A stretch of DNA of 40,232 nucleotides from Bacillota bacterium (GTDB lineage Bacteria; Bacillota; Clostridia; Lachnospirales; WQUN01): NCBI GenBank assembly GCA_009778185.1, contig WRKG01000295.1, forward strand, positions 1 to 40,232, given 5' to 3'. Positions 26,245 to 40,232 of this stretch are shown here, piece by piece. Within the stretch, counting starts at the first letter, position 1. Each line of letters opens with the position of its first letter. A program made the position numbers and the translations under genes. Below the pieces are notes generated by a model that was given only the letters and a program-made list of their open reading frames with translations, had not been told where the DNA came from and ran no database searches.

Positions 26245-26270
26245 GCAGGTTATCTTAGGAGGAGAATCAA

Positions 26271-27755
26271 ATGCAACCATTATTATCAATAATTATGCCA
26301 ATATATAACAACGAGCGTACGTTAAAAAAGGCGGTCGATAGTATTTTAGTGCAAAAATTTGACGATTGGGAATTATTGTTAGTTGACGATGGTTCAACGG
26401 ATTCTTGTGTGCAAATTGTTGACGAATATGCGAAGTTGGATAATCGTATAAGGGCTTTTCATAAGGAGAATGGTGGAACATATTCTGGATTTAATTATGG
26501 GTTGGAGGAAACTATCGGAAAATATATTACTTTTTGTTGTGCGGATGATACTTATGAACCAATAGCGTTCGAAATAATAAAAAATCAATTAGATGAGTAT
26601 GATTATGATATGGTTCTTATTGCTGTAGTTTCGCATGATTGCGATAATGACCAAAATATTATATTAACGCATCCATATAACAATAAAATCAAAAATTCAT
26701 TCAAAATTATTGATAAAAAATCAATAGAAAGGCAATGGTTTGATTTTTGGGTGGCAGAGTTATTGATGTCTCCAATAAATATATACAAAGCTAGTATAAT
26801 AAAAAAATACCGTTTTAGAGAACGTTTTTATGCTGATGATAGATTTCTAAATATAGTTATAGCAGATGAAATACATTCGATTTCTTACGATTCCACGGAA
26901 ATATATAATTCGTATACGTACGTTCATATTATTGATGAAAATGTTAATATAAGCGGCAACAAATACTACGACTACGAAATAGATATGATTTGCGAACAAT
27001 ACTTATATTACACCGCTTTGTTTGATAAATGGGGCTTGTTAGATAAATATTTAGTTAATTTTGCCAATTTAACTGCTCACAATGTACTTTTACATATTAA
27101 AAAAATATTTGCTTTTAATAACAAAAATGAACCTACAACAAATATCGATATTTTAACAAATTATTACAACGATATAATATTTGAAATAGCTGCCATAGGT
27201 GACAATTTATCAGATATAGATAACGAAATTTTCAAAACGATACACATTATATTTCAACATTATAACGTTTCCACCAATTTTGACAATCCAGTTGTGCAAA
27301 TGATTGTTGCAATAAACAGTACAACAATATCGATTGATGAAGTTAAATTGGAAATTGCTAACGGTTTGTTAGATTATCGCAATCCATACAGAATCGGTTT
27401 TGAAACCTACAAAAATTTATCCGCCAAGTACCCGCAACTATTAAACCGTGAATTACTCGATTATTTAGAAACCGAACAAACGGCAAGAAAATTACTATTT
27501 ACTGGCAACTTTGAACAATCCCTCGATACAACAATCCGATTATTTAATAGCAAAATTTCCACACCAGAGCAATATGTTATATTAGCCCTTTGTGGCTATC
27601 ATTTAGACTTAATCGAAGATGCCAAAAATGCAGTTGAAACAGGCCTGCAACTTTTTCCAAATTATTCAAGATTGGAAGAATTGCAAAATGTTATAAACGC
27701 CGAAAGGAATGAATCAAATGCAACCATTATTATCAATAATTATGCCAATATATAA
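26271..27755 (+). CDS. GT2 glycosyltransferase, array copy 1 (N-terminal class A)
   Basis: LLSIIMPIYNNERTLKKAVDSILVQKFDDWELLLVDDGSTDSC...CCADDT GT-A motifs; extends past the usual terminus because TAA is TCA. Confidence 0.93.
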   Translation: MQPLLSIIMPIYNNERTLKKAVDSILVQKFDDWELLLVDDGSTDSCVQIVDEYAKLDNRIRAFHKENGGTYSGFNYGLEETIGKYITFCCADDTYEPIAFEIIKNQLDEYDYDMVLIAVVSHDCDNDQNIILTHPYNNKIKNSFKIIDKKSIERQWFDFWVAELLMSPINIYKASIIKKYRFRERFYADDRFLNIVIADEIHSISYDSTEIYNSYTYVHIIDENVNISGNKYYDYEIDMICEQYLYYTALFDKWGLLDKYLVNFANLTAHNVLLHIKKIFAFNNKNEPTTNIDILTNYYNDIIFEIAAIGDNLSDIDNEIFKTIHIIFQHYNVSTNFDNPVVQMIVAINSTTISIDEVKLEIANGLLDYRNPYRIGFETYKNLSAKYPQLLNRELLDYLETEQTARKLLFTGNFEQSLDTTIRLFNSKISTPEQYVILALCGYHLDLIEDAKNAVETGLQLFPNYSRLEELQNVINAERNESNATIIINNYANI

Positions 27756-29166
27756 CAACGAACGTACTCTAAAAAAAGCGGTTGATAGTATTTTAGTGCA
27801 AAAATTTGACGATTGGGAATTATTGTTAGTTGACGATGGTTCAACGGATTCTTGTGTGCAAATTGTTGAAGATTATGCGAAAGGGGATAATCGTATAAGG
27901 GCTTTTCATAAGGAGAATGGTGGGACTTATTCGGGGCTAAATTATGGGTTGCAGGAAGCTATAGGAAAATATATTACTTTTTGTTGTGCTGATGATACTT
28001 ATGAGCCTTCGGCTTTCGAAATAATATATAAACAATTAGTCGAATATGATTATGATTTAGTATTTTGCGTTTGTGCTAGCCACTACTGTGACAATAATCA
28101 AAATATTATAGAAAAAAATACCTACACAAATGGTGTTACCGATTCTTTCAAATTTATAGGCAAAAAAATTGTTGAACAAAATTGGCTTAATTTTTGCATT
28201 GCAGGTATGCCATTTCATCCAATCAATGTATATAAATCTAATATATTAAAAAAATATCGATATAGGGAAGACTTTGTGCTTGCGGATAGATTTTTGAATA
28301 TAGCAATAGCAGATGAAATAAATTCTGTTTCTTGTAGTAAAACAATATTGTATAACAAATATTTATACCAAACGAGTACATCAGACGAAAATGTCAACTT
28401 GAGTAATAACAAATATCATGACAATGAGATAGATATGATTGTTCAACAGTATTTGGATTTTACATCTTTGTTTGATAAATGGGGTTTGTTAGATAAACAT
28501 TTAATTGATTTTGCTAATTTAACTGTTCAAGGACTAGTTTACGCCTTGAAAAATATATTTGCTTTTAATAATAAAAATAATCCTACAACAAACATCGATA
28601 TTGTAACAAGTTATTACAACGATATAATATTCGAAACCGCCGCTATAGCCGATAATTTATCAGAAATAGATGACGAAATTTTCAAAACAATACATATTAT
28701 ATTTCAAAATGGCAACGTTTCCGCTAATTTTGACAACCCTGTTGTGCGAATAATTACCGCAATAAATAGCACAACAATGTTGATTGACGAAGTTAAAGTG
28801 GAAATAGCTAATGGTTTGCTAGATTATCGAAATCCCTACAGAATTGGCTTTGAAACCTACAAAAATTTATCTGCCAAATATCCGCAAATATTAAACCGTG
28901 AATTACTCGATTATTTGGAAACCGAACAAACGGCAAGAAAATTACTTTTTACTGGCAACCTTGAACAATCCCTCGATACAGTAATCCAATTATTTAACAG
29001 CAAAATTTCCACACCAGAACAATATGTTATTCTTGCCCTTTGTGGCTATCATTTAGGCTTAGCCGAAGATGCTAAAAATGCAGTTGAAACAGGAATTAAA
29101 CTTTTCCCAAATTATCCAAGATTGGAAGAATTGCAAAATATTATAAATACCGAAAGGAACGGATAA
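27718..29166 (+). CDS. GT2 glycosyltransferase, array copy 2 (class A)
   Basis: As copy 1; start set to MQPLLS ATG rather than 27709; overlaps copy 1 by 38 nt. Confidence 0.93.
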   Translation: MQPLLSIIMPIYNNERTLKKAVDSILVQKFDDWELLLVDDGSTDSCVQIVEDYAKGDNRIRAFHKENGGTYSGLNYGLQEAIGKYITFCCADDTYEPSAFEIIYKQLVEYDYDLVFCVCASHYCDNNQNIIEKNTYTNGVTDSFKFIGKKIVEQNWLNFCIAGMPFHPINVYKSNILKKYRYREDFVLADRFLNIAIADEINSVSCSKTILYNKYLYQTSTSDENVNLSNNKYHDNEIDMIVQQYLDFTSLFDKWGLLDKHLIDFANLTVQGLVYALKNIFAFNNKNNPTTNIDIVTSYYNDIIFETAAIADNLSEIDDEIFKTIHIIFQNGNVSANFDNPVVRIITAINSTTMLIDEVKVEIANGLLDYRNPYRIGFETYKNLSAKYPQILNRELLDYLETEQTARKLLFTGNLEQSLDTVIQLFNSKISTPEQYVILALCGYHLGLAEDAKNAVETGIKLFPNYPRLEELQNIINTERNG

Positions 29167-29167
29167 A

Positions 29168-30625
29168 ATGCAACCTTTGTTATCAATAGTAATAAGTGTA
29201 TATAACGCCGAAATCACTATCAAAAAAGCAATAACTAGTATATTAACCCAAAAATTTGACGATTGGGAAATTATTTTAGTGAACGATGGCTCAACGGATT
29301 CTTGTCCACAAATTATTGACGATTATGCAAAATCGGACACGCGCATAAAGGCTTTTCACAAACAAAATGAAGGTCCATATTCGGGGTTTAACTTGGGAAT
29401 TGAAAAAGCAATAGGCAAATATATTACTTTCATGGGTGCTGATGATACTTACGAACTCGACGCTTTGCAAATAATAGCCAATCAAGCCACCGAATATGAT
29501 TATGATATAATATGTATTTTGCTTAATATTCTTCAATCTGAAGATGATGAGCAAAATATTACAAAAATTTTAGAAAGGCAGGTTTTACCACAAAAATGGG
29601 AAAATGGTATCAAAATAACAAATAAAAAGGATTTTCAATCTTTTTGGTTAATATTTTTGTATGATAACATTATTTCTAACAATATGAATGTATACAAAGC
29701 GAGTATAATAAAAAAATATAAATATAGGGCAATTAAATATGGCGAGGATACTTTATTTAATATAGATTTGGCTGACGATATTTGCTCTGTATCATGCCAT
29801 CCAAAGCCAATATACAATTATTTTTATTATGTCAACAACGAGAGGCTTAATATAAGTATGAATAAATATCATGCTAATTCGCACACAATATTGAATGAAT
29901 GTTATATAAAATGCAAGGAATTGCTAATAAAATGGCATCTTAATAATGATACCAATATTACAACGATTTCAGAAAGACGAATAGTTCACAATTTACCAGA
30001 GTTAGTACATCGATTATATGCACCAAATAATCCAAACACTCCAGAACAAAATATTGACATTGTTACAGGCTACTATGATGATATAGTTTTTGAAACCGCA
30101 AATCATCTGAATTGGTTAGATAAAGTTGACAATCTACTTTTTAGTACGATAGGCGTTATTATAAAGGAAAATCAACTTAAAAATAATTTTGGCAATCCTG
30201 TTGTGCGAATGATTGTCGCAATAAACAACAAAACAATTTCAGTTGACGAAATTAAATTAGAAATAGCCAACGGTTTGCTAGATTGTTGTAATCCCTACAG
30301 AATTGGCTTTGAAGCCTACAAAACTTTATCCACTAAACATACCCAGATTGCTGATTCTGAATTACTCGCTTACCTAGAAACCGAACAAACGGCAAGAAAA
30401 TTACTTTTTACTGGCAACCTGGAACAATCCCTCGATACAGTAATCCAATTATTTAACAGCAAAATTTCCACACCCGAACAATATGTCATTCTCGCACTTT
30501 GTGGCTATCATTTAGGCTTAACCGAAGATGCTAAAAACGCAGTTGAAACTGGCTTGCAAAATTTTCCAAATTATCCGAGATTGGAAGAATTGCAAAATAT
30601 TATAAATACCGAAAGGAGAGAATAA
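29168..30625 (+). CDS. GT2 glycosyltransferase, array copy 3 (class B)
   Basis: MQPLLSIVISVYNAEITIKKAITSILTQKFDDWEIILVNDGSTDSC...MGADDTYE. Confidence 0.93.
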   Translation: MQPLLSIVISVYNAEITIKKAITSILTQKFDDWEIILVNDGSTDSCPQIIDDYAKSDTRIKAFHKQNEGPYSGFNLGIEKAIGKYITFMGADDTYELDALQIIANQATEYDYDIICILLNILQSEDDEQNITKILERQVLPQKWENGIKITNKKDFQSFWLIFLYDNIISNNMNVYKASIIKKYKYRAIKYGEDTLFNIDLADDICSVSCHPKPIYNYFYYVNNERLNISMNKYHANSHTILNECYIKCKELLIKWHLNNDTNITTISERRIVHNLPELVHRLYAPNNPNTPEQNIDIVTGYYDDIVFETANHLNWLDKVDNLLFSTIGVIIKENQLKNNFGNPVVRMIVAINNKTISVDEIKLEIANGLLDCCNPYRIGFEAYKTLSTKHTQIADSELLAYLETEQTARKLLFTGNLEQSLDTVIQLFNSKISTPEQYVILALCGYHLGLTEDAKNAVETGLQNFPNYPRLEELQNIINTERRE

Positions 30626-30627
30626 AA

Positions 30628-32070
30628 ATGCAACCTTTGTTATCGATAGTAATCCCAATATATAACAACGAACGTACATTAAAAAAAATGGTGGATAGTA
30701 TTTTAATACAACAATTTGATAATTGGGAATTATTATTGGTCAACGATGGTTCAACTGATTCTTGTGCACAAATTATTGACGATTATGTAAAACTAGATGG
30801 ACGAATAAAAGCCTTTCACAAAGAAAATGGCGGAACGTACACAGGTTATAATCTCGGATTAAAACGGGCTTGCGGTAAATATATTATTTTTGCAAGTGCC
30901 GATGACATTTTTGATATAACAGCATTTGAAACAGTGGCTAATCAGGCTTACGAATACGACTACGATATTATTTTTATGCAACACGCAATATATCATGTTA
31001 ATAGCGAAAAAAATACTATCGAACCTAAACTTTTGCCAAGCAACAATGCACTAAAATCTATTGGCAAAAAAAATGTAGAAGAATCATGGTATTATTTTAG
31101 CTTAATAAGAGCAACTCATTCACCCGTAAATGCCTATAAAATGGATATAATAAAAAAATATTGCTTTCGAGAGGATGTATACGCAGCAGACACATTTATG
31201 AATCTAGCTATAGCCGATGAAATACAATCTGTATCTTATAATCCTAAAATATTGTACCATCGTTATATGTACATAAATGTATCCGAAGAAAATAAAAATA
31301 TAAGTTCTGGCAAATATTATCCGTATAAGCATGATATGTGCAACGTTTTATATAATGAAAGTAAAAATTTGTTTTCAAAATGGCAACAGCTAGATGAATC
31401 TTGCTTGTATTTAATTGGCTCAACTAGAGTATTTGAGTTATATAATGAACTTGAAATGATATTTGCTTTTAATAATAAAAATACGCCTATCGAAAATATT
31501 GATATTATTACAGGCTATTATAATGACATTACTTTCGAAGCGGCAAATTTTTCTAACGAACTGAATAACATTGACAATCGTATTTTTAGTACAATAGGCA
31601 TTATTATAAAAGAAAATCAAATTAAAAATAATTTTGGCAATCCCATTGTACGAATGATTACCGCAATAAATAACACCACAATATCAGTTGACGAAATTAA
31701 ATTAGAAATAGCTAATGGTTTACTAGATTATCGCAACCCTTATAGAATCGGCTTTGAAGCCTACAAACTTTTATCCGAAAAGTATACTCAAATATCCGAT
31801 TACGAATTACTCAATTACCTAGAAACAGAACGTACCGCACGAAAATTGCTATTTACTGGCAATTTTGAGCAATCCCTCGATACAGTAATCCAATTATTTA
31901 ACAGCAAAATTTCCACGCCAGAGCAATATGTTATACTTGCCCTTTGCGGCTATCATTTAGACTTAACCGAAGATGCCAAAAATGCAGTTGAAACAGGAAT
32001 TAAACTTTTCCCCAATTATCCAAGATTGGAAGAATTGCAAAATGTTATAAATACCGAAAGGAATGAATAA
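30628..32070 (+). CDS. GT2 glycosyltransferase, array copy 4 (class C)
   Basis: MQPLLSIVIPIYNNERTLKKMVDSILIQQFDNWELLLVNDGSTDSC. Confidence 0.93.
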   Translation: MQPLLSIVIPIYNNERTLKKMVDSILIQQFDNWELLLVNDGSTDSCAQIIDDYVKLDGRIKAFHKENGGTYTGYNLGLKRACGKYIIFASADDIFDITAFETVANQAYEYDYDIIFMQHAIYHVNSEKNTIEPKLLPSNNALKSIGKKNVEESWYYFSLIRATHSPVNAYKMDIIKKYCFREDVYAADTFMNLAIADEIQSVSYNPKILYHRYMYINVSEENKNISSGKYYPYKHDMCNVLYNESKNLFSKWQQLDESCLYLIGSTRVFELYNELEMIFAFNNKNTPIENIDIITGYYNDITFEAANFSNELNNIDNRIFSTIGIIIKENQIKNNFGNPIVRMITAINNTTISVDEIKLEIANGLLDYRNPYRIGFEAYKLLSEKYTQISDYELLNYLETERTARKLLFTGNFEQSLDTVIQLFNSKISTPEQYVILALCGYHLDLTEDAKNAVETGIKLFPNYPRLEELQNVINTERNE

Positions 32071-32071
32071 A

Positions 32072-33514
32072 ATGCAACCTTTATTGTCAATAATAATGCC
32101 CATATATAACAACGAACGTACTCTAAAAAAGGCGGTCGATAGTATTTTGGTGCAAAAATTTGATAACTGGGAATTATTATTAGTTGACGATGGTTCAACT
32201 GATTCTTGTGTACAAATTGTTGAGGATTATGCAAAATCGGATATTCGCATAAAGGCTTTTCATAAGAAAAATGGTGGAATGTACTCGGCTTGTAACTGTG
32301 GGCTAGAGCAAGCTATAGGAAAATATATTACTTTTTGTTGTGCAGACGACACTTATGAACCAATAGCATTTGAAATAATAAAAGTTCAATTAGATGACTA
32401 TGATTACGATATGGTTTTTATAGCTTGTTCTTCAAATGATTGTGATAATGATCAAAATATTATATTCACGTATCCTTATGAAAATAAAATTACAAATTCG
32501 TTCAAAATCACTGATAAAAAGACAGTAGAAATGCGATGGTTTGATTTTTTGGTAGCAGAGTTATTGATGTCTCCAATAAATGTATACAAATCTAGTATAA
32601 TAAAAAAATACCGTTTTAGAGAAGATTATTATATTTCTGATAGATTTATGAATAATGCTATAGCAGATGAGATTCATTCTGTTTCTTATAATCCAATAGA
32701 ACAATATAAACATTACAAATATATAAATATAGTTGACTCAAATGTTAATATAAGTATGAATAAATATTACGATTACGAAATGGATATGCTTATAGACCAA
32801 TATTTAGACTATACAAACCTTTTTGCAAAATGGGGTTTATTAGACAAAGTATTAATTAATTTTGCCAACTTAACTATACAAGGATTAGCTTATGCACTAA
32901 CAAAAATATTTGCTTTTAACAACAAAAATGCAACAACAACAAACATCGATATTGTAACCAATTATTACAACGATATAATATTCGAAACCGCCGCTATATC
33001 TGATAGTTTGTTAGAAGTAGATAACGAAATTTTCAAAACTATACTCACTATAATTCAAACTGGGAAAGTTCCTGCTAATTTTGACAACCCAGTTGTACGA
33101 ATGATTACTGCAATAAATAGCACAACAATGTTGATTGACGAAGTTAAACTAGAAATTGCTAATGGTTTGTTAGATTATCGCAATCCCTACAGAATCGGCT
33201 TTGAAACCTATAAAAATTTATCCGATAAATATCCGCAATTATCAAACCCCGAATTACTCGCTTATTTACAAACCGAACAAACGGCAAGAAAATTACTTTT
33301 TACTGGCAACCTTGAAAAAGCCCTCGATACAGTAATCCAATTATTCAACAGCAAAATTTCCACACCCGAGCAATATGTTATTCTCACCCTTTGTGGCTAT
33401 CATTTAGGCTTAACCGAATATGCCAAAAATGCAGTTGAAACTGGTTTGAAAAATTTTCCCAATTATCCAAGATTGGAAGAATTGCAAAACATTATAAACG
33501 AAAGGAACGATTAA
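32072..33514 (+). CDS. GT2 glycosyltransferase, array copy 5 (class A)
   Basis: Same N-terminus and middle type as copies 1 and 2; start reset from 32063 to MQPLLS. Confidence 0.93.
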   Translation: MQPLLSIIMPIYNNERTLKKAVDSILVQKFDNWELLLVDDGSTDSCVQIVEDYAKSDIRIKAFHKKNGGMYSACNCGLEQAIGKYITFCCADDTYEPIAFEIIKVQLDDYDYDMVFIACSSNDCDNDQNIIFTYPYENKITNSFKITDKKTVEMRWFDFLVAELLMSPINVYKSSIIKKYRFREDYYISDRFMNNAIADEIHSVSYNPIEQYKHYKYINIVDSNVNISMNKYYDYEMDMLIDQYLDYTNLFAKWGLLDKVLINFANLTIQGLAYALTKIFAFNNKNATTTNIDIVTNYYNDIIFETAAISDSLLEVDNEIFKTILTIIQTGKVPANFDNPVVRMITAINSTTMLIDEVKLEIANGLLDYRNPYRIGFETYKNLSDKYPQLSNPELLAYLQTEQTARKLLFTGNLEKALDTVIQLFNSKISTPEQYVILTLCGYHLGLTEYAKNAVETGLKNFPNYPRLEELQNIINERND

Positions 33515-33516
33515 AA

Positions 33517-34968
33517 ATGCAACCTTTAATTTCCGTAATTATGGCTGTGTACAACACCGAAATGACTCTAAAAAAAGCTGTACAAAGTATTTTATCCCAA
33601 AATTTTGACGATTGGGAACTTCTTTTAGTTAATGACGGTTCAACTGATTCTTGTCCGCAAATTATCGACGATTATGTAAAATCGGATAACCGCATAAGGG
33701 TTTTTCATAAGGAAAACGAAGGTGCTTACTCTTGCTTTAATGTTGCTATTGAAAAGGCAACAGGTAAATACATAACTTTTCTTGATTCGGATGATACATT
33801 GGAGTTAGATGCCTTAAAAATAGTGGCTGAACAAGCTGCAGAACATTATTACGATATAATATTTATGTGCGTTAATATATTTGAATGTGATGAAAACCAA
33901 AATATTATAAAGTTAGAGCATAAAGATGTTTTGCCTTCCAGTTTAGAAAAAAACTTGCCAATAACAAGTAAAAATGAAGTGGAAAAGTTATGGATAATTT
34001 TATTTTATGCTAATTTAATTTCTAATGTAAAAAATGTGTACAAGTCAACTCTAATAAAAAAATATAAATTTAGAAAACTTTTATACGGCGAAGATCGCTT
34101 TTTGAATTTGGATTTAGCCGATGATGTTCATTCCGCATCATGCCATCCGAAGCCAATACACAACCATTTTTTATACATTAGCAACGATACCTATAATATA
34201 AGCCGTAAATATCACAGCAATGCCTTTGCTATGTTTAGTGAATATTATACAAAATCTAAGCAATTATTTGCAAAGTGGAATTGCTTAGACGAAAGAAGGT
34301 TGTACATACTTTCCGAAAACATGACAACCGTTAATTTGCCAGAGGTATTAAAACAAATATTTTCTCCAAACAACAAAAATACTCCAGAAGAAAATATTGA
34401 CATTGTGGTAAATTACTATAACGATATTATATTTGAAACGGCCGCTATTTCTGATAATTTAGATAAAGTTGACAATCAAATTTTTAATACAATAGGCAAT
34501 ATAATATTGAATAATGAAATATCTGCCGATTTTGATAATCCAGTTTTTAGACTGTTTACAGCTATTAACAATACAACAATTTCAGTTGACGAAATTAAAC
34601 AGGAAATTATCAATAGCTTATTAGATTATCGAAATCCTTACAGAATCGGTTTCGAAGTCTACAAAACTTTATCCGTACAATTTATCCAAATAGCAAACGC
34701 CGAATTACTTGATTATTTACAAACCGAACAAATCGCCCGAAAATTGCTATTTACTGGCAACTTTGAACAAGCCCTCGATACAGTAATCCAATTATTTAAC
34801 AGCAAAATCTCCACGCCAGAACAATACATTATTCTCGCCCTTTGTGGCTATCATTTAGGCTTAACCGAATATGCCCAAAATGCAGTTGAAACAGGCTTGC
34901 AACTTTTTCCAAATTATCCAAGATTGGAAGAACTGCAAAATATTATAAATACCGAAAGGAATGAGTAA
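33517..34968 (+). CDS. GT2 glycosyltransferase, array copy 6 (class D)
   Basis: MQPLISVIMAVYNTEMTLKKAVQSILSQNFDDWELLLVNDGSTDSC...LDSDDTLE. Confidence 0.93.
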   Translation: MQPLISVIMAVYNTEMTLKKAVQSILSQNFDDWELLLVNDGSTDSCPQIIDDYVKSDNRIRVFHKENEGAYSCFNVAIEKATGKYITFLDSDDTLELDALKIVAEQAAEHYYDIIFMCVNIFECDENQNIIKLEHKDVLPSSLEKNLPITSKNEVEKLWIILFYANLISNVKNVYKSTLIKKYKFRKLLYGEDRFLNLDLADDVHSASCHPKPIHNHFLYISNDTYNISRKYHSNAFAMFSEYYTKSKQLFAKWNCLDERRLYILSENMTTVNLPEVLKQIFSPNNKNTPEENIDIVVNYYNDIIFETAAISDNLDKVDNQIFNTIGNIILNNEISADFDNPVFRLFTAINNTTISVDEIKQEIINSLLDYRNPYRIGFEVYKTLSVQFIQIANAELLDYLQTEQIARKLLFTGNFEQALDTVIQLFNSKISTPEQYIILALCGYHLGLTEYAQNAVETGLQLFPNYPRLEELQNIINTERNE

Positions 34969-34970
34969 AA

Positions 34971-36401
34971 ATGCAACCATTATTATCAATAGTAATTCCA
35001 ATATATAACAACGAACGTACGCTCAAAAAAATGGTGGATAGTATTTTAGTACAAAAATTTGACGATTGGGAACTATTACTAGTTGACGATGGCTCAACTG
35101 ATTCCTGTCCACAAATTGTTGACGATTATACAAAATCAGATAATCGCATAAAGGCTTTTCATAAGGAAAATGGCGGAACTTTTACAGCTTGCAACCTTGG
35201 GTTACAACAGGTTACAGGAAAATACACAATTTTTGGTTCTGCTGATGATTTTTTTACCGCAAACGCCTTTGAGGTAATAGTTGCTCAAACCAATGAATAT
35301 GACTATGACATTATTTTAATGAATGTTTTAGGGGTTAAAGTTGATTCAGAACACAAAATATATAAAACGTTTAATATGTATGGATCAAATTTAACAGAGC
35401 CTATAAAATTACTAAACAAAAAAGATTTTGAGGTAAAATTTTCCACATTCATACACGACGGACTACTTACTATGTATTTTAATTGTTACAAATCTTCTAT
35501 AACAAAAAAATTTCCTTATAATCTTGCATATGAATGCGTTGCAGACATAGATATGAATTTAAACATAGCGGATAGTATAAACAGTGTTTCTTACGACCCT
35601 ACATTTGTATACAACTATACTATATACGATGACTCTAACTATAATTTATCCATTGGAAAATACCGTCAAAACGAGCACAAACAGTTAAATGAAATGTACT
35701 TAAAGCAAAGAAATTTATTAAGTACTTGGAATCTTCTAGATAAATTACCTGAAATTGCTATTGTACCAATAATTCTTTTAAGGGAGCGTACACTGCTTTA
35801 TATATTTAATAACTCAAACGGCACAGCTACTCAAAATATTGATATTGTTACAAGCTATTATGATGACATATTATTGGAATGTGCCATATTTACTGGAAAT
35901 TTACAAAATGTATGTATCGCAATTTTTAATACTATAAACACTATTGCAGGATGTAACGATCTTCCTTATGATTTTGATAATCCTATTGTACGAATAATTA
36001 AAGCACTAAATAATAACAAAATAACATTTGAACAAAAAAATTATGAAATCACTAATGGTCTTTTAGATTATAGGAATCCTTACCGAATAGGTTTTGAAAC
36101 CTACAAAACTACATTTGACAAAGAACATTTAAATATTGAACTAATAAATTATATAGAAATGGAGCGCATGGCACGAGAATTATTATTTACATCAAACTTT
36201 GAAGCATCCCTTGATGCAACAATCCAATTATTCAACAGCAAAATTTCCACACCAGAGCAATACATTATTCTCGCCCTTTGTGGCTATCATTTAGGCTTAA
36301 CCGAAGATGCCAAAAATGCAGTTGAAACAGGCTTGCAACTTTTTCCAAATTATCCAAGATTGGAAGAACTGCAAAATATTATAAACGAAAGGAATGAGTA
36401 A
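34971..36401 (+). CDS. GT2 glycosyltransferase, array copy 7 (class C, most divergent middle/C-terminus)
   Basis: Class C N-terminus; middle and KTTFDKEHLNIELINYIEMERMARELLFTSNFEASLDATIQLFNSKIS diverge. Confidence 0.93.
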   Translation: MQPLLSIVIPIYNNERTLKKMVDSILVQKFDDWELLLVDDGSTDSCPQIVDDYTKSDNRIKAFHKENGGTFTACNLGLQQVTGKYTIFGSADDFFTANAFEVIVAQTNEYDYDIILMNVLGVKVDSEHKIYKTFNMYGSNLTEPIKLLNKKDFEVKFSTFIHDGLLTMYFNCYKSSITKKFPYNLAYECVADIDMNLNIADSINSVSYDPTFVYNYTIYDDSNYNLSIGKYRQNEHKQLNEMYLKQRNLLSTWNLLDKLPEIAIVPIILLRERTLLYIFNNSNGTATQNIDIVTSYYDDILLECAIFTGNLQNVCIAIFNTINTIAGCNDLPYDFDNPIVRIIKALNNNKITFEQKNYEITNGLLDYRNPYRIGFETYKTTFDKEHLNIELINYIEMERMARELLFTSNFEASLDATIQLFNSKISTPEQYIILALCGYHLGLTEDAKNAVETGLQLFPNYPRLEELQNIINERNE

Positions 36402-36403
36402 AA

Positions 36404-37861
36404 ATGCAACCATTGTTATCAATAGTAATAAGTGTATATAATGCCGAAATTACCATAAGAAAAGCGATAGCTAGCATATTAACCCAAAAGTTTGACGATT
36501 GGGAAATTATTTTAGTGAACGATGGCTCAACGGATTCTTGTCCACAAATTATTGACGATTATGCAAAATCGGACACTCGCATAAAGGCCTTTCATAAAAA
36601 AAATGAAGGTCCCTATTCGGGGTTTAACTTGGGAATTGAAAAAGCAATAGGCAAATATATTACTTTCATGGGAGCTGACGATACTTATGAGCAAGATGCT
36701 TTGCAAATAATAGCCAATCAAGCCGCCGAATATAATTATGATATGATATTTATTTTACTTAATATTATTGAATGTGATGATGAACAAAATATTATAAAAA
36801 TTTCAGAAAGACAATCTTTACCGCAAAAGTGGGAAAATGGTATGAAAATAACAAATAAAAAGGATGTTCAATCTTTTTGGATAATATTTTTGTATAATAA
36901 AATTATTGCCAACAACACGAATGTATATAAAGCAAGCATAATAAAAAAATATAAATATAGAGCAATTAGATATGGCGAAGATCACTTTTTGAATATAGAT
37001 TTAGCTGACGAAATTTGCTCTGTATCATGCAATCCAAAACCAATATACAACAATTTTATTTATGTCAACAACAACAGTCTTAATATAAGTATAAACAAAT
37101 ATCATGTTCATGCACACGCAATGTTTAATGAATATTATATAAAATACAAGGAACTGTTAACAAAATGGAATCTTAATAATGACCATACTTATTTTATGAT
37201 GCTTTCGGAAATTCAAGTACATCACTACTTGATAGCAATACTAAGTCAAATATTTGCACCGAATAATTCACACACTCCAAAAGAGAATATTGATATTGTT
37301 ACAGGTTATTACGATGATATAATTTTTGAAACGGCAAACAATTTGAATTATTTGGATAAAATTGACAACCAATTTTTTAACATAATTGGTAATATAACTC
37401 TACAAAATAAAATATCTAGTGATTTTGATAATCCAATTTATAGGATGTTTACAGCCCTAAACAACACAACAATTTCATTTGATAGAATGAAATCGGAAAT
37501 AACACACAGTTTATTAGATTATAGTAATCCATACCGAATCGGCTTCGAAGTCTACAAAACTTTATCCACACAATTTATAAAAATAGCAAACGCCGAATTA
37601 CTTGATTATTTACAAACTGAACAAATCGCCAGAAAATGGCTATTTACTGGCAACTTTGAACAAGCCCTCGATACAACAATCCAATTATTCAACAGCAAAA
37701 TCTCAACACCCGAACAATACGTTATTCTCGCCCGTTGTGGCTATCATTTAGGCTTAACCGAAGATGCCAAAAACGCAGTTGAAACAGGCTTGCAACTTTT
37801 TCCAAATTATCCAAGATTGGAAGAACTGCAAAATATCATAAATACCGAAAGGAATGAATAA
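36404..37861 (+). CDS. GT2 glycosyltransferase, array copy 8 (class B N-terminus and middle, copy-6-like C-terminal part)
   Basis: MQPLLSIVISVYNAEITIRKAIASILTQKFDDWEIILVNDGSTDSC; FDNPIYRMFTALNNTTIS...TQFIKIANAELLDYLQTEQIARK. Confidence 0.93.
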   Translation: MQPLLSIVISVYNAEITIRKAIASILTQKFDDWEIILVNDGSTDSCPQIIDDYAKSDTRIKAFHKKNEGPYSGFNLGIEKAIGKYITFMGADDTYEQDALQIIANQAAEYNYDMIFILLNIIECDDEQNIIKISERQSLPQKWENGMKITNKKDVQSFWIIFLYNKIIANNTNVYKASIIKKYKYRAIRYGEDHFLNIDLADEICSVSCNPKPIYNNFIYVNNNSLNISINKYHVHAHAMFNEYYIKYKELLTKWNLNNDHTYFMMLSEIQVHHYLIAILSQIFAPNNSHTPKENIDIVTGYYDDIIFETANNLNYLDKIDNQFFNIIGNITLQNKISSDFDNPIYRMFTALNNTTISFDRMKSEITHSLLDYSNPYRIGFEVYKTLSTQFIKIANAELLDYLQTEQIARKWLFTGNFEQALDTTIQLFNSKISTPEQYVILARCGYHLGLTEDAKNAVETGLQLFPNYPRLEELQNIINTERNE

Positions 37862-37863
37862 AA

Positions 37864-39303
37864 ATGCAACCATTATTATCGATAGTAATCCCAATATATA
37901 ACAACGAACGTACGCTCAAAAAAATGGTGGATAGTATTTTAATACAAAAATTTGACAACTGGGAACTATTATTAGTCAATGACGGTTCAACCGATTCTTG
38001 TCCACAAATTATTGACGATTATGCGAAATCGGATAATCGCATAAAGGCTTTTCACAAACAAAATGGCGGAACATATTCTGGTTACAATCTCGGATTAAAA
38101 TGTGCTTGTGGCAAATATATTATGTTTGTTGGTGCTGACGATACTTTCGAACCAATAGCATTCGAAACAATATACGAACAAACACAAGAATATGATTATG
38201 ATATTATTTTTATAGATACAAATATAATTGCTTGCGATAATGATTATAATACATTAAATAACATTCGTATAATTCCTTTAATGGAATCTCCACTTAAAAT
38301 CATATCAAAAGTTTTAGTACAAAAACATTGGCTATCATTTACAAAATCAAATTTTGTTCAATATTTGTACAAATTAGATATATTAAAAGACTACCAATAT
38401 AGGGAAGACATACATAATGCAGATATGTTTATGATTGTAGAAACGGCAGATAAAATTCATTCAGTTTCCGTTTCACATAAAAGTTTGTATAATTGGTATT
38501 TATATTATCAACCTCAACAAGAACACACAAATATAAGTCAAAATAAATATTACCCCTATTTGCACGATGTACATAACGAAATATATATACAGTACAAGCA
38601 ATTACATATAAAATGGAAAAATTTAGATAACGACACTTTAACTTTACTTAAAGAAATTAGGCTACAACGCTTTATTGAAGAAATAAATTTGATTTTTGCA
38701 CCAAACAACAAAAATACACCTAGCGAAAACGCAAACGAACTTCTAAATATGATGGATGATACAATTTTTGAAGCAGCCGTTTTTGGAGACTACATGCCTG
38801 AGATTGACAATCGTATTTTTAGCACGATAGGCGTTATTATAAAAGAAAATCAAATTAAAAATAATTTTGGAAATCCTATTGTGAGAATAATTACCGCAAT
38901 AAACAACACAACAATATCAGTTGACGAAATCAAATTAGAAATAACTAATGGTTTACTAGATTATCGCAATCCTTACAGAATCGGTTTCGAAACCTACAAA
39001 ACTTTATCCGAAAACAATACTCAAATAGCTGATTTTGAATTACTCAATTACCTAGAAACCGAACTCACCGCAAGAAAACAACTATTTACTGGCAACCTTG
39101 AACAAGCCCTCGATACAACAATCCAATTATTTAACAGCAAAATCTCAACGCCAGAGCAATACGTTATTCTCGCCCTTTGCGGCTATCATTTAGGCTTAAC
39201 CGAAGATGCCCAAAATGCAGTTGAAACTGGCTTGCAACTTTTTCCCAATTATCCAAGATTGGAAGAACTGCAAAATATTATAAATACTGAAAGGAATGAA
39301 TAA
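37864..39303 (+). CDS. GT2 glycosyltransferase, array copy 9 (class C, closest to copy 4)
   Basis: SILIQKFDNWELLLVNDGSTDSC, GYNLGLKCACGKYI as in copy 4. Confidence 0.93.
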   Translation: MQPLLSIVIPIYNNERTLKKMVDSILIQKFDNWELLLVNDGSTDSCPQIIDDYAKSDNRIKAFHKQNGGTYSGYNLGLKCACGKYIMFVGADDTFEPIAFETIYEQTQEYDYDIIFIDTNIIACDNDYNTLNNIRIIPLMESPLKIISKVLVQKHWLSFTKSNFVQYLYKLDILKDYQYREDIHNADMFMIVETADKIHSVSVSHKSLYNWYLYYQPQQEHTNISQNKYYPYLHDVHNEIYIQYKQLHIKWKNLDNDTLTLLKEIRLQRFIEEINLIFAPNNKNTPSENANELLNMMDDTIFEAAVFGDYMPEIDNRIFSTIGVIIKENQIKNNFGNPIVRIITAINNTTISVDEIKLEITNGLLDYRNPYRIGFETYKTLSENNTQIADFELLNYLETELTARKQLFTGNLEQALDTTIQLFNSKISTPEQYVILALCGYHLGLTEDAQNAVETGLQLFPNYPRLEELQNIINTERNE

Positions 39304-39305
39304 AA

Positions 39306-40232
39306 ATGCAACCATTATTATCAATAGTAATTCCAATATATAACAACGAACGTACACTCAAAAAAATGGTGGATAGTATTTTAGTGCAAAAATTTGACGA
39401 TTGGGAAGTATTGTTAGTTGACGATGGTGCAACTGATTCTTGTCCACAAATTATTGACGATTATGCAAAATCGGATAATCGCATAAAGGCTTTTCACAAA
39501 CAAAATGGCGGTGCGTATTCGGGTTTTAATTTTGGGCTAAAAAAGGCAAATGGAAAATACATTACATTCGGAGCGGCTGACGATACTTACGAACCTACAG
39601 CTTTTGCAACAATAGCTGAACAAGCAGCGGAGTGCGATTACGATATAATATTTATGTCTATGAATTGTTATGAATGCGACAACAACCAAGAAAATAAAAA
39701 ACTCTTGTCATCGCATACTCTAAAAAATCCTCTAAAATTGACTGATAAAAAAAGTGTGCAACTAGAATGTATAAATTTTTTGAAAATAGGTTGTATGGAT
39801 TCGGTTATGCAAGTTTACAAGGCAAATATAATAAAAAAATATACATATAGAGAAGACATTATTGCTGCGGATTTATTTGTAAATTTACAAGTGTTAGAAG
39901 ACATTAACTCGGCATCATATTATAACAAACCTTTGTACAATCACTATATATATATATATATATATATACGATATAGATACCAATATTGGAACTGGAAAAT
40001 ATCATTCGTATCAACATGATAGTTCTAATGAACTATACGTCAAATACAAAAATTTGTTTACAAAATGGAATCTTTTGACTAATGAAAATTTATTGTTTCA
40101 TTGTAACCGACGGCTCGAACACTTGACTTTGAACTTGTCATTGATATTTGCTTTTAACAATAAAAATACTCCTACACAAAATATTGAAGAAATTATAGGT
40201 TACTATGACGATATAATTGTTGAGACAGCTTC
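39306..40232 (+). pseudogene. GT2 glycosyltransferase, array copy 10 (class C), frameshifted at (TA)12 and truncated by window edge; candidate phase-OFF gene
   Basis: Frame 1 ends at 40019 shortly after the repeat; homology (DIDTNIGTGKYHSYQHDSSNELYVKYKNLFTKWNLL...FAFNNKNTPTQNIEEIIGYYDDIIVETA) resumes in another frame without stops to 40232. Confidence 0.9.
39945..39968 (+). repeat. Dinucleotide microsatellite (TA)12 inside copy 10
   Basis: 24 nt of alternating TA counted directly between CAC and CGATATAGATACC. Confidence 0.97.

Follow-up and report, generated by a model that had tools for sequence, protein, structure and literature searches.

Why do neighbouring glycosyltransferase genes of one bacterial contig carry the same few codons at their 3' ends, directly ahead of the next start codon, and are these codons kept for the protein that they end or for the gene that follows? 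The window, i.e., the whole stretch of DNA that was analysed (40,232 nt), is the complete contig C295 of a single MAG (3.03 Mb, 296 contigs, 79% complete). From position 26271 to the contig end it contains, on the + strand, ten head-to-tail GT2 glycosyltransferase (GT) genes of about 480 aa each:

26255..26270, +, leader Shine-Dalgarno (SD) site of w1 (ttaggaggagaatcaa), intergenic; differs from the junction motif and is stronger (duplex energy -10.9 kcal/mol)
26271..27755, +, GT unit w1, GT2 plus helical C-terminal domain (PF00535, E=4e-31); junction stop lost (TCA, 27714-27716)
27718..29166, +, GT unit w2, ATGCAACC start
29168..30625, +, GT unit w3 (PF00535, E=5e-31)
30628..32070, +, GT unit w4
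32072..33514, +, GT unit w5
33517..34968, +, GT unit w6
34971..36401, +, GT unit w7 (AlphaFold2 model with a pLDDT of 87; its last helix stops at residue 473; tail sequence ERNE)
36404..37861, +, GT unit w8
37864..39303, +, GT unit w9
39306..40232, +, GT unit w10, truncated where the contig ends, with a frameshift at a (TA)12 tract (39945-39968)

PF00535 scores of 101-110 bits in five units, against a curated cut-off of 23.3, identify the GT2 domain. The nearest solved folds were found by Foldseek (E down to 3e-13); CgT (5hea), RmlT (8bz7), TarS (5tzk), TarP (6hnq) and chondroitin polymerase (2z86) have the N-terminal GT-A domain in common with the units, whereas the fused helical C-terminal domain sets the units apart. 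The GT units are predicted to be GT-A enzymes. The first-pass annotation had placed the array at 29130-39308, an interval that leaves out the first gene with its junction and holds the other eight of the nine junctions. The junctions read as follows:

27702..27720, +, junction w1/w2, GAAAGGAATGAATCAA-ATG, no stop there
29152..29170, +, junction w2/w3, GAAAGGAACGGATAAA-ATG
30611..30630, +, junction w3/w4, GAAAGGAGAGAATAAAA-ATG
32056..32074, +, junction w4/w5, GAAAGGAATGAATAAA-ATG
33500..33519, +, junction w5/w6, GAAAGGAACGATTAAAA-ATG
34954..34973, +, junction w6/w7, GAAAGGAATGAGTAAAA-ATG
36387..36406, +, junction w7/w8, GAAAGGAATGAGTAAAA-ATG
37847..37866, +, junction w8/w9, GAAAGGAATGAATAAAA-ATG
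39289..39308, +, junction w9/w10, GAAAGGAATGAATAAAA-ATG

On the + strand of the window, GAAAGGA occurs only at the first coordinate of these nine lines, each of them a GT-to-GT junction. The annotated motif was found at nine of nine junctions, 9-10 nt ahead of ATGCAACC, with GAA AGG in the upstream frame as Glu-Arg. A spacing of 1-3 nt between genes had also been claimed; the stop-to-ATG gap is indeed 1-2 nt at eight junctions, but w1 and w2 overlap, because the upstream stop TAA is changed to TCA there and w1 continues into w2 in another frame (ORF 26271-27755). The window junctions have two features of translationally coupled pairs: a stop/start overlap or a gap of a few nucleotides, and an SD within the upstream gene (GAAAGGA in frame, 9-10 nt before the ATG). 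Two spacers are shorter by one base, and in these an in-frame ATG (at 27709 and 32063) comes right after the SD and gives a longer ORF call (MNQMQP and MNKMQP, respectively). Gene callers may misplace starts at these two positions; the ATG at 27709, directly 3' of the SD, is unlikely to be used as the start of w2.

Searching the same genome, we found three further arrays (C113, C253 and C260) and a lone first unit on C169. A unit was classed as internal if the next GT start came directly after it, and as terminal if a convergent gene or a spacer carrying its own SD came next; the 16 internal units include the partial a0 and the broken c2 and c3. All 16 GT-to-GT junctions (C295, nine; C113, two; C253, two; C260, three) have GAA-AGG in frame close to the C-terminus of the upstream unit, with the c1/c2 junction reading GAAAGGG. 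None of the four terminal units has it; these end in ANQ-stop (a2), KITSDL (b3), KLNFNL (b4) and AENVENIEKSQQTTVGS (c4). The internal versus terminal contrast corresponds to a Fisher value of about 2e-4, obtained by arithmetic and ignoring the kinship of the arrays; since all arrays come from one MAG and share descent, the 16 junctions cannot be counted as independent and amount to only three to five array-level contrasts. In C113, the C-termini of a1 and a2 are near-identical and diverge exactly at the motif (TERNK versus ANQ). Among 221 other ORFs of at least 200 aa in 400 kb of the same genome, a single one has in-frame GAA-AGG near its C-terminus. The pattern GAAAGGA-N5-9-TAA-N0-3-ATGCAACC was found 16 times in this genome, always at GT-family starts, and a search of 294 further genomes of the order gave it once; thus, the arrays are so far known from one species. 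Neither in 60 relatives nor in about 295 genomes of the order was an array of this type detected, and homologue scans of genome contigs with the full GT protein and with the C-domain alignment yielded no match. The arrays on C113 and C295 have the same junction type and the closest ends, and C113 was considered as a continuation of C295; the two contigs do not overlap. It should be noted that c2 (L023, 5062-6253) is frameshifted and lacks about 250 nt compared with the other units, and has kept its GAAAGGA junction. Palindrome-like short GTAGGGGCG... repeats (69 in 400 kb; L021 3186-3330, L023 9176-9330, and window positions 221 and 7874) sit behind two terminal units.

All internal junctions have a predicted anti-SD pairing of -5.6 to -8.7 kcal/mol; of 1012 internal-ATG controls, 22% reach even -4 kcal/mol. 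By itself the junction motif is weaker than AGGAGG leaders, and the own leader of w1, TTAGGAGGAGAATCAA-ATG, is another and stronger site. The leaders of w1 and b1 both carry other, stronger SDs, and their likeness to the junctions does not exceed background; therefore, the junction cassette is not simply the present leader of each array. Conversely, the cassette was also found without any coding function, before c1 (L023, TTTTGAAAGGAATGGTTAAA-ATG), where the upstream gene is divergent, and before the C169 unit (L024, AACCGAAAGGAATAACCAAA-ATG), 222 nt after the preceding gene. The 16-nt leader of c1 is the same as the c2/c3 and c3/c4 junctions, and the c1 and C169 leaders are closer to the junctions than any of 220 background gene starts. 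The presence of the cassette in non-coding leaders indicates that it belongs to the downstream gene. The start of b5 in C253 (GAAAGGAG) was rejected as a non-coding leader, as it sits in a short open frame behind capE. An mRNA hairpin hiding the SD was rejected as well: the SD is mostly unpaired (0.37-0.79) and the MFE is no stronger than elsewhere in the array, which gives no evidence for an unfolding switch.

The Arg codon of the motif is AGG in 13 of 13 intact internal units versus 24 of 210 Arg codons elsewhere in the GT family. Three to four codons are in use at each of the other five conserved Arg columns, and of the 42 columns in which the amino acid is invariant and the degeneracy is 4-fold or higher, only 3 keep a single codon. 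The first-pass annotation had proposed a check for excess conservation at synonymous sites, and the outcome agrees with its claim: where the amino acid is identical between arrays, the codon is the same in 100% of 82 comparisons at the Glu-Arg pair, compared to 65% (columns 460-480) and 73% (columns 480-492) in the neighbourhood. This comparison between arrays is important because the last 250 nt of the units are about 90% identical within C295, so that the nine window junctions alone are weak evidence.

The AlphaFold2 model of w7 has the tail at or past the end of the last helix, in a block with a pLDDT of 63. Homologues of the C-terminal domain exist as standalone proteins in 12 genomes of the same family; they stop close to the tail position or short of it, and none has ER. 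Taken together with the contrast between internal and terminal units, the model and these homologues suggest that the fold does not need the tail and that the tail depends on there being a next gene. The standalone gene (L047-L058) is single-copy, about 245 aa long and without a Pfam match; in the two neighbourhoods scanned it adjoins lgt, near aspS.

If the ERN(E) tail were needed by the GT protein and resembled an SD by chance, conservation of Glu-Arg in all internal units would be expected, and it is observed; however, the tail is missing in four of four terminal units with an otherwise intact domain, the Arg codon is frozen to AGG, the same letters recur in non-coding leaders, and the tail lies at or past the end of the folded part in the model. 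We regard protein constraint as very improbable. Somewhat less improbable, and still not a reading that we favour, is recent duplication only, i.e., a young, homogenised array in which the motif persists without selection. The high identity of the last 250 nt in C295 and their homogenisation by array speak for it, but GAA-AGG is fully identical between arrays even though silent codons have drifted, and terminal units with the same homogenised C-end miss exactly the motif.

The possibility with the most substance, to which we give a little less than an even chance and which is compatible with the explanation preferred below, is an ordinary tight operon, in which the SD falls within the upstream ORF because of the short spacer and the array adds nothing special. 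In a set of 41 tight ATG pairs taken from 400 kb of this genome, dG is <= -4 in 66%, and in 23 pairs an SD 4-mer starts within the upstream CDS; across 720 genomes, upstream genes commonly contain SD motifs in their 3' region (Huber et al. 2019, PMC6728339). This description is true but incomplete, as it leaves the identical cassette in all arrays and the non-coding leaders unexplained: a single SD within the upstream ORF is ordinary, and the unusual part is a portable ribosome-binding module repeated through a paralogue array. The least probable of all is an assembly artefact that created the tandem units or junctions as short-read chimeras. The fragmentation of the MAG, the location of the arrays on four contigs and the end of one contig inside a unit would be compatible with chimeras; on the other hand, no exact tract common to aligned units is longer than 86 nt, a length that one typical short read covers, the cores are only about 50% identical, and the same junction is present on several contigs.

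The explanation that we consider probable, from sequence comparison, is that the C-terminal codons of the GT genes are the ribosome-binding site of the next gene, embedded in the upstream frame, and that the repeated unit would consist of a ribosome-binding cassette plus a GT2 ORF. Invariant AGG, the pairing energies, the spacing, the absence from terminal units and the non-coding leaders all support the central claim of the first-pass annotation, namely, that the Glu-Arg codons act as the SD of the next gene. Under the cassette-plus-ORF model, the roughly 20-nt cassette of unit k+1 ((A)CCGAAAGGAAT...TAA(A)AA-ATGCAACC) would lie inside the frame of unit k owing to the near-zero spacer, and would be read as the last 4-5 residues of unit k ((T)-E-R-N-x-stop), with the stop codon also coming from the cassette. 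The tail codons would be conserved as part of the leader of the next gene, i.e., as RNA (SD, spacer and stop/start), and not as a conserved GT protein C-terminus; that the last gene of a row has no tail codons suggests that the tail is simply the start signal of the next gene read through. Ribosomes ending unit k would probably be released beside the start of unit k+1, resulting in coupling or re-initiation along the array. We infer that the motif drives initiation and that translation is coupled along the array, and the non-coding leader may represent the ancestral form of the cassette. In known termination-reinitiation with an intragenic SD (PMC6728339; review PMC12548453), the SD likewise lies within the upstream ORF, at its 3' end, the stop nearly touches the start and the genes are co-directional; there, each SD serves one gene pair, whereas in the GT arrays one cassette is repeated and its presence follows array position. 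The literature searched contains general work on coupling and yielded no paralogue-array precedent, an absence that is weak evidence.

The identity of units is U-shaped, about 0.8 at the N-end, about 0.5 in the core and about 0.9 at the C-end. C-end identity is 0.854 within versus 0.764 between arrays (p=3e-4), compared to 0.562 and 0.555 for the core (not significant); similarity of the N-end correlates with that of the core (r=0.47, p=0.008) and not with that of the C-end (r=-0.17). The PHI test is significant for the C295 array alone (p<0.001) and not significant over all arrays together (p=0.96). Mosaic paralogues with homogenised common ends, as seen here, are one feature of recombining (antigenic or phase-variable) gene arrays. 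Tract exchange across the junction is not supported, as the similarities of the C-ends (unit k) and of the following N-ends (unit k+1) are not significantly correlated (r=0.15, p=0.24), and only the w1 leader and the w1/w2 junction share GAATCAAATG. The proposal that the cassette is self-propagating and free to shuffle is only partly supported: the genes are mosaic and their C-ends are homogenised by array, but no significant correlation was seen across the junction. End-homogenisation is supported by these comparisons, and movement of whole modules is plausible; recombination between highly similar ends could swap or homogenise gene ends while each gene keeps its ribosome-binding site, and the arrays may change size. 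Recombining paralogous surface-glycan GT genes are known from Neisseria lgt and the Helicobacter GT pairs. The GT arrays resemble these systems in their similar ends, divergent cores, tandem copies and slippage-prone tracts, and differ in having up to ten units, almost no spacer and a ribosome-binding site in the coding frame, here in one genome.

Slippage-prone tracts were found in two different arrays at the same site, (TA)12 in w10 (39945-39968) and (TA)9 in c3 (L023 6891-6908), at unit positions 640 and 637, and each of these units is frameshifted at its own tract. Only one other (TA)>=8 tract, an intergenic one, is present in 400 kb of the genome. The (TA)n tracts are candidate phase-variation switches. 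A bolder reading, which we put forward tentatively and consider rather unlikely as a whole, is that the units are portable modules of ribosome-binding site plus ORF, whose addition overwrites the upstream C-terminus, so that the last five codons mark a unit as internal or terminal; combined with (TA)n slippage and coupling, one frameshift would lower all units behind it. A CapF-like gene and a CapE-like gene (E=8e-147 to CapE) are interspersed in the C253 array, and these neighbours point to surface glycans with an amino-fucose-type sugar. Flagellin has nine hits in the genome, so that flagellin glycans may be involved too.

Internal and terminal paralogues within one genome amount to a natural experiment, in which selection for an RNA signal and selection for the protein can be compared at the same codons. 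The results suggest a route by which tandem arrays of surface-glycan genes may grow without intergenic control regions. They also serve as a warning that conserved C-terminal motifs of tandem paralogues may represent ribosome-binding sites and not protein function.
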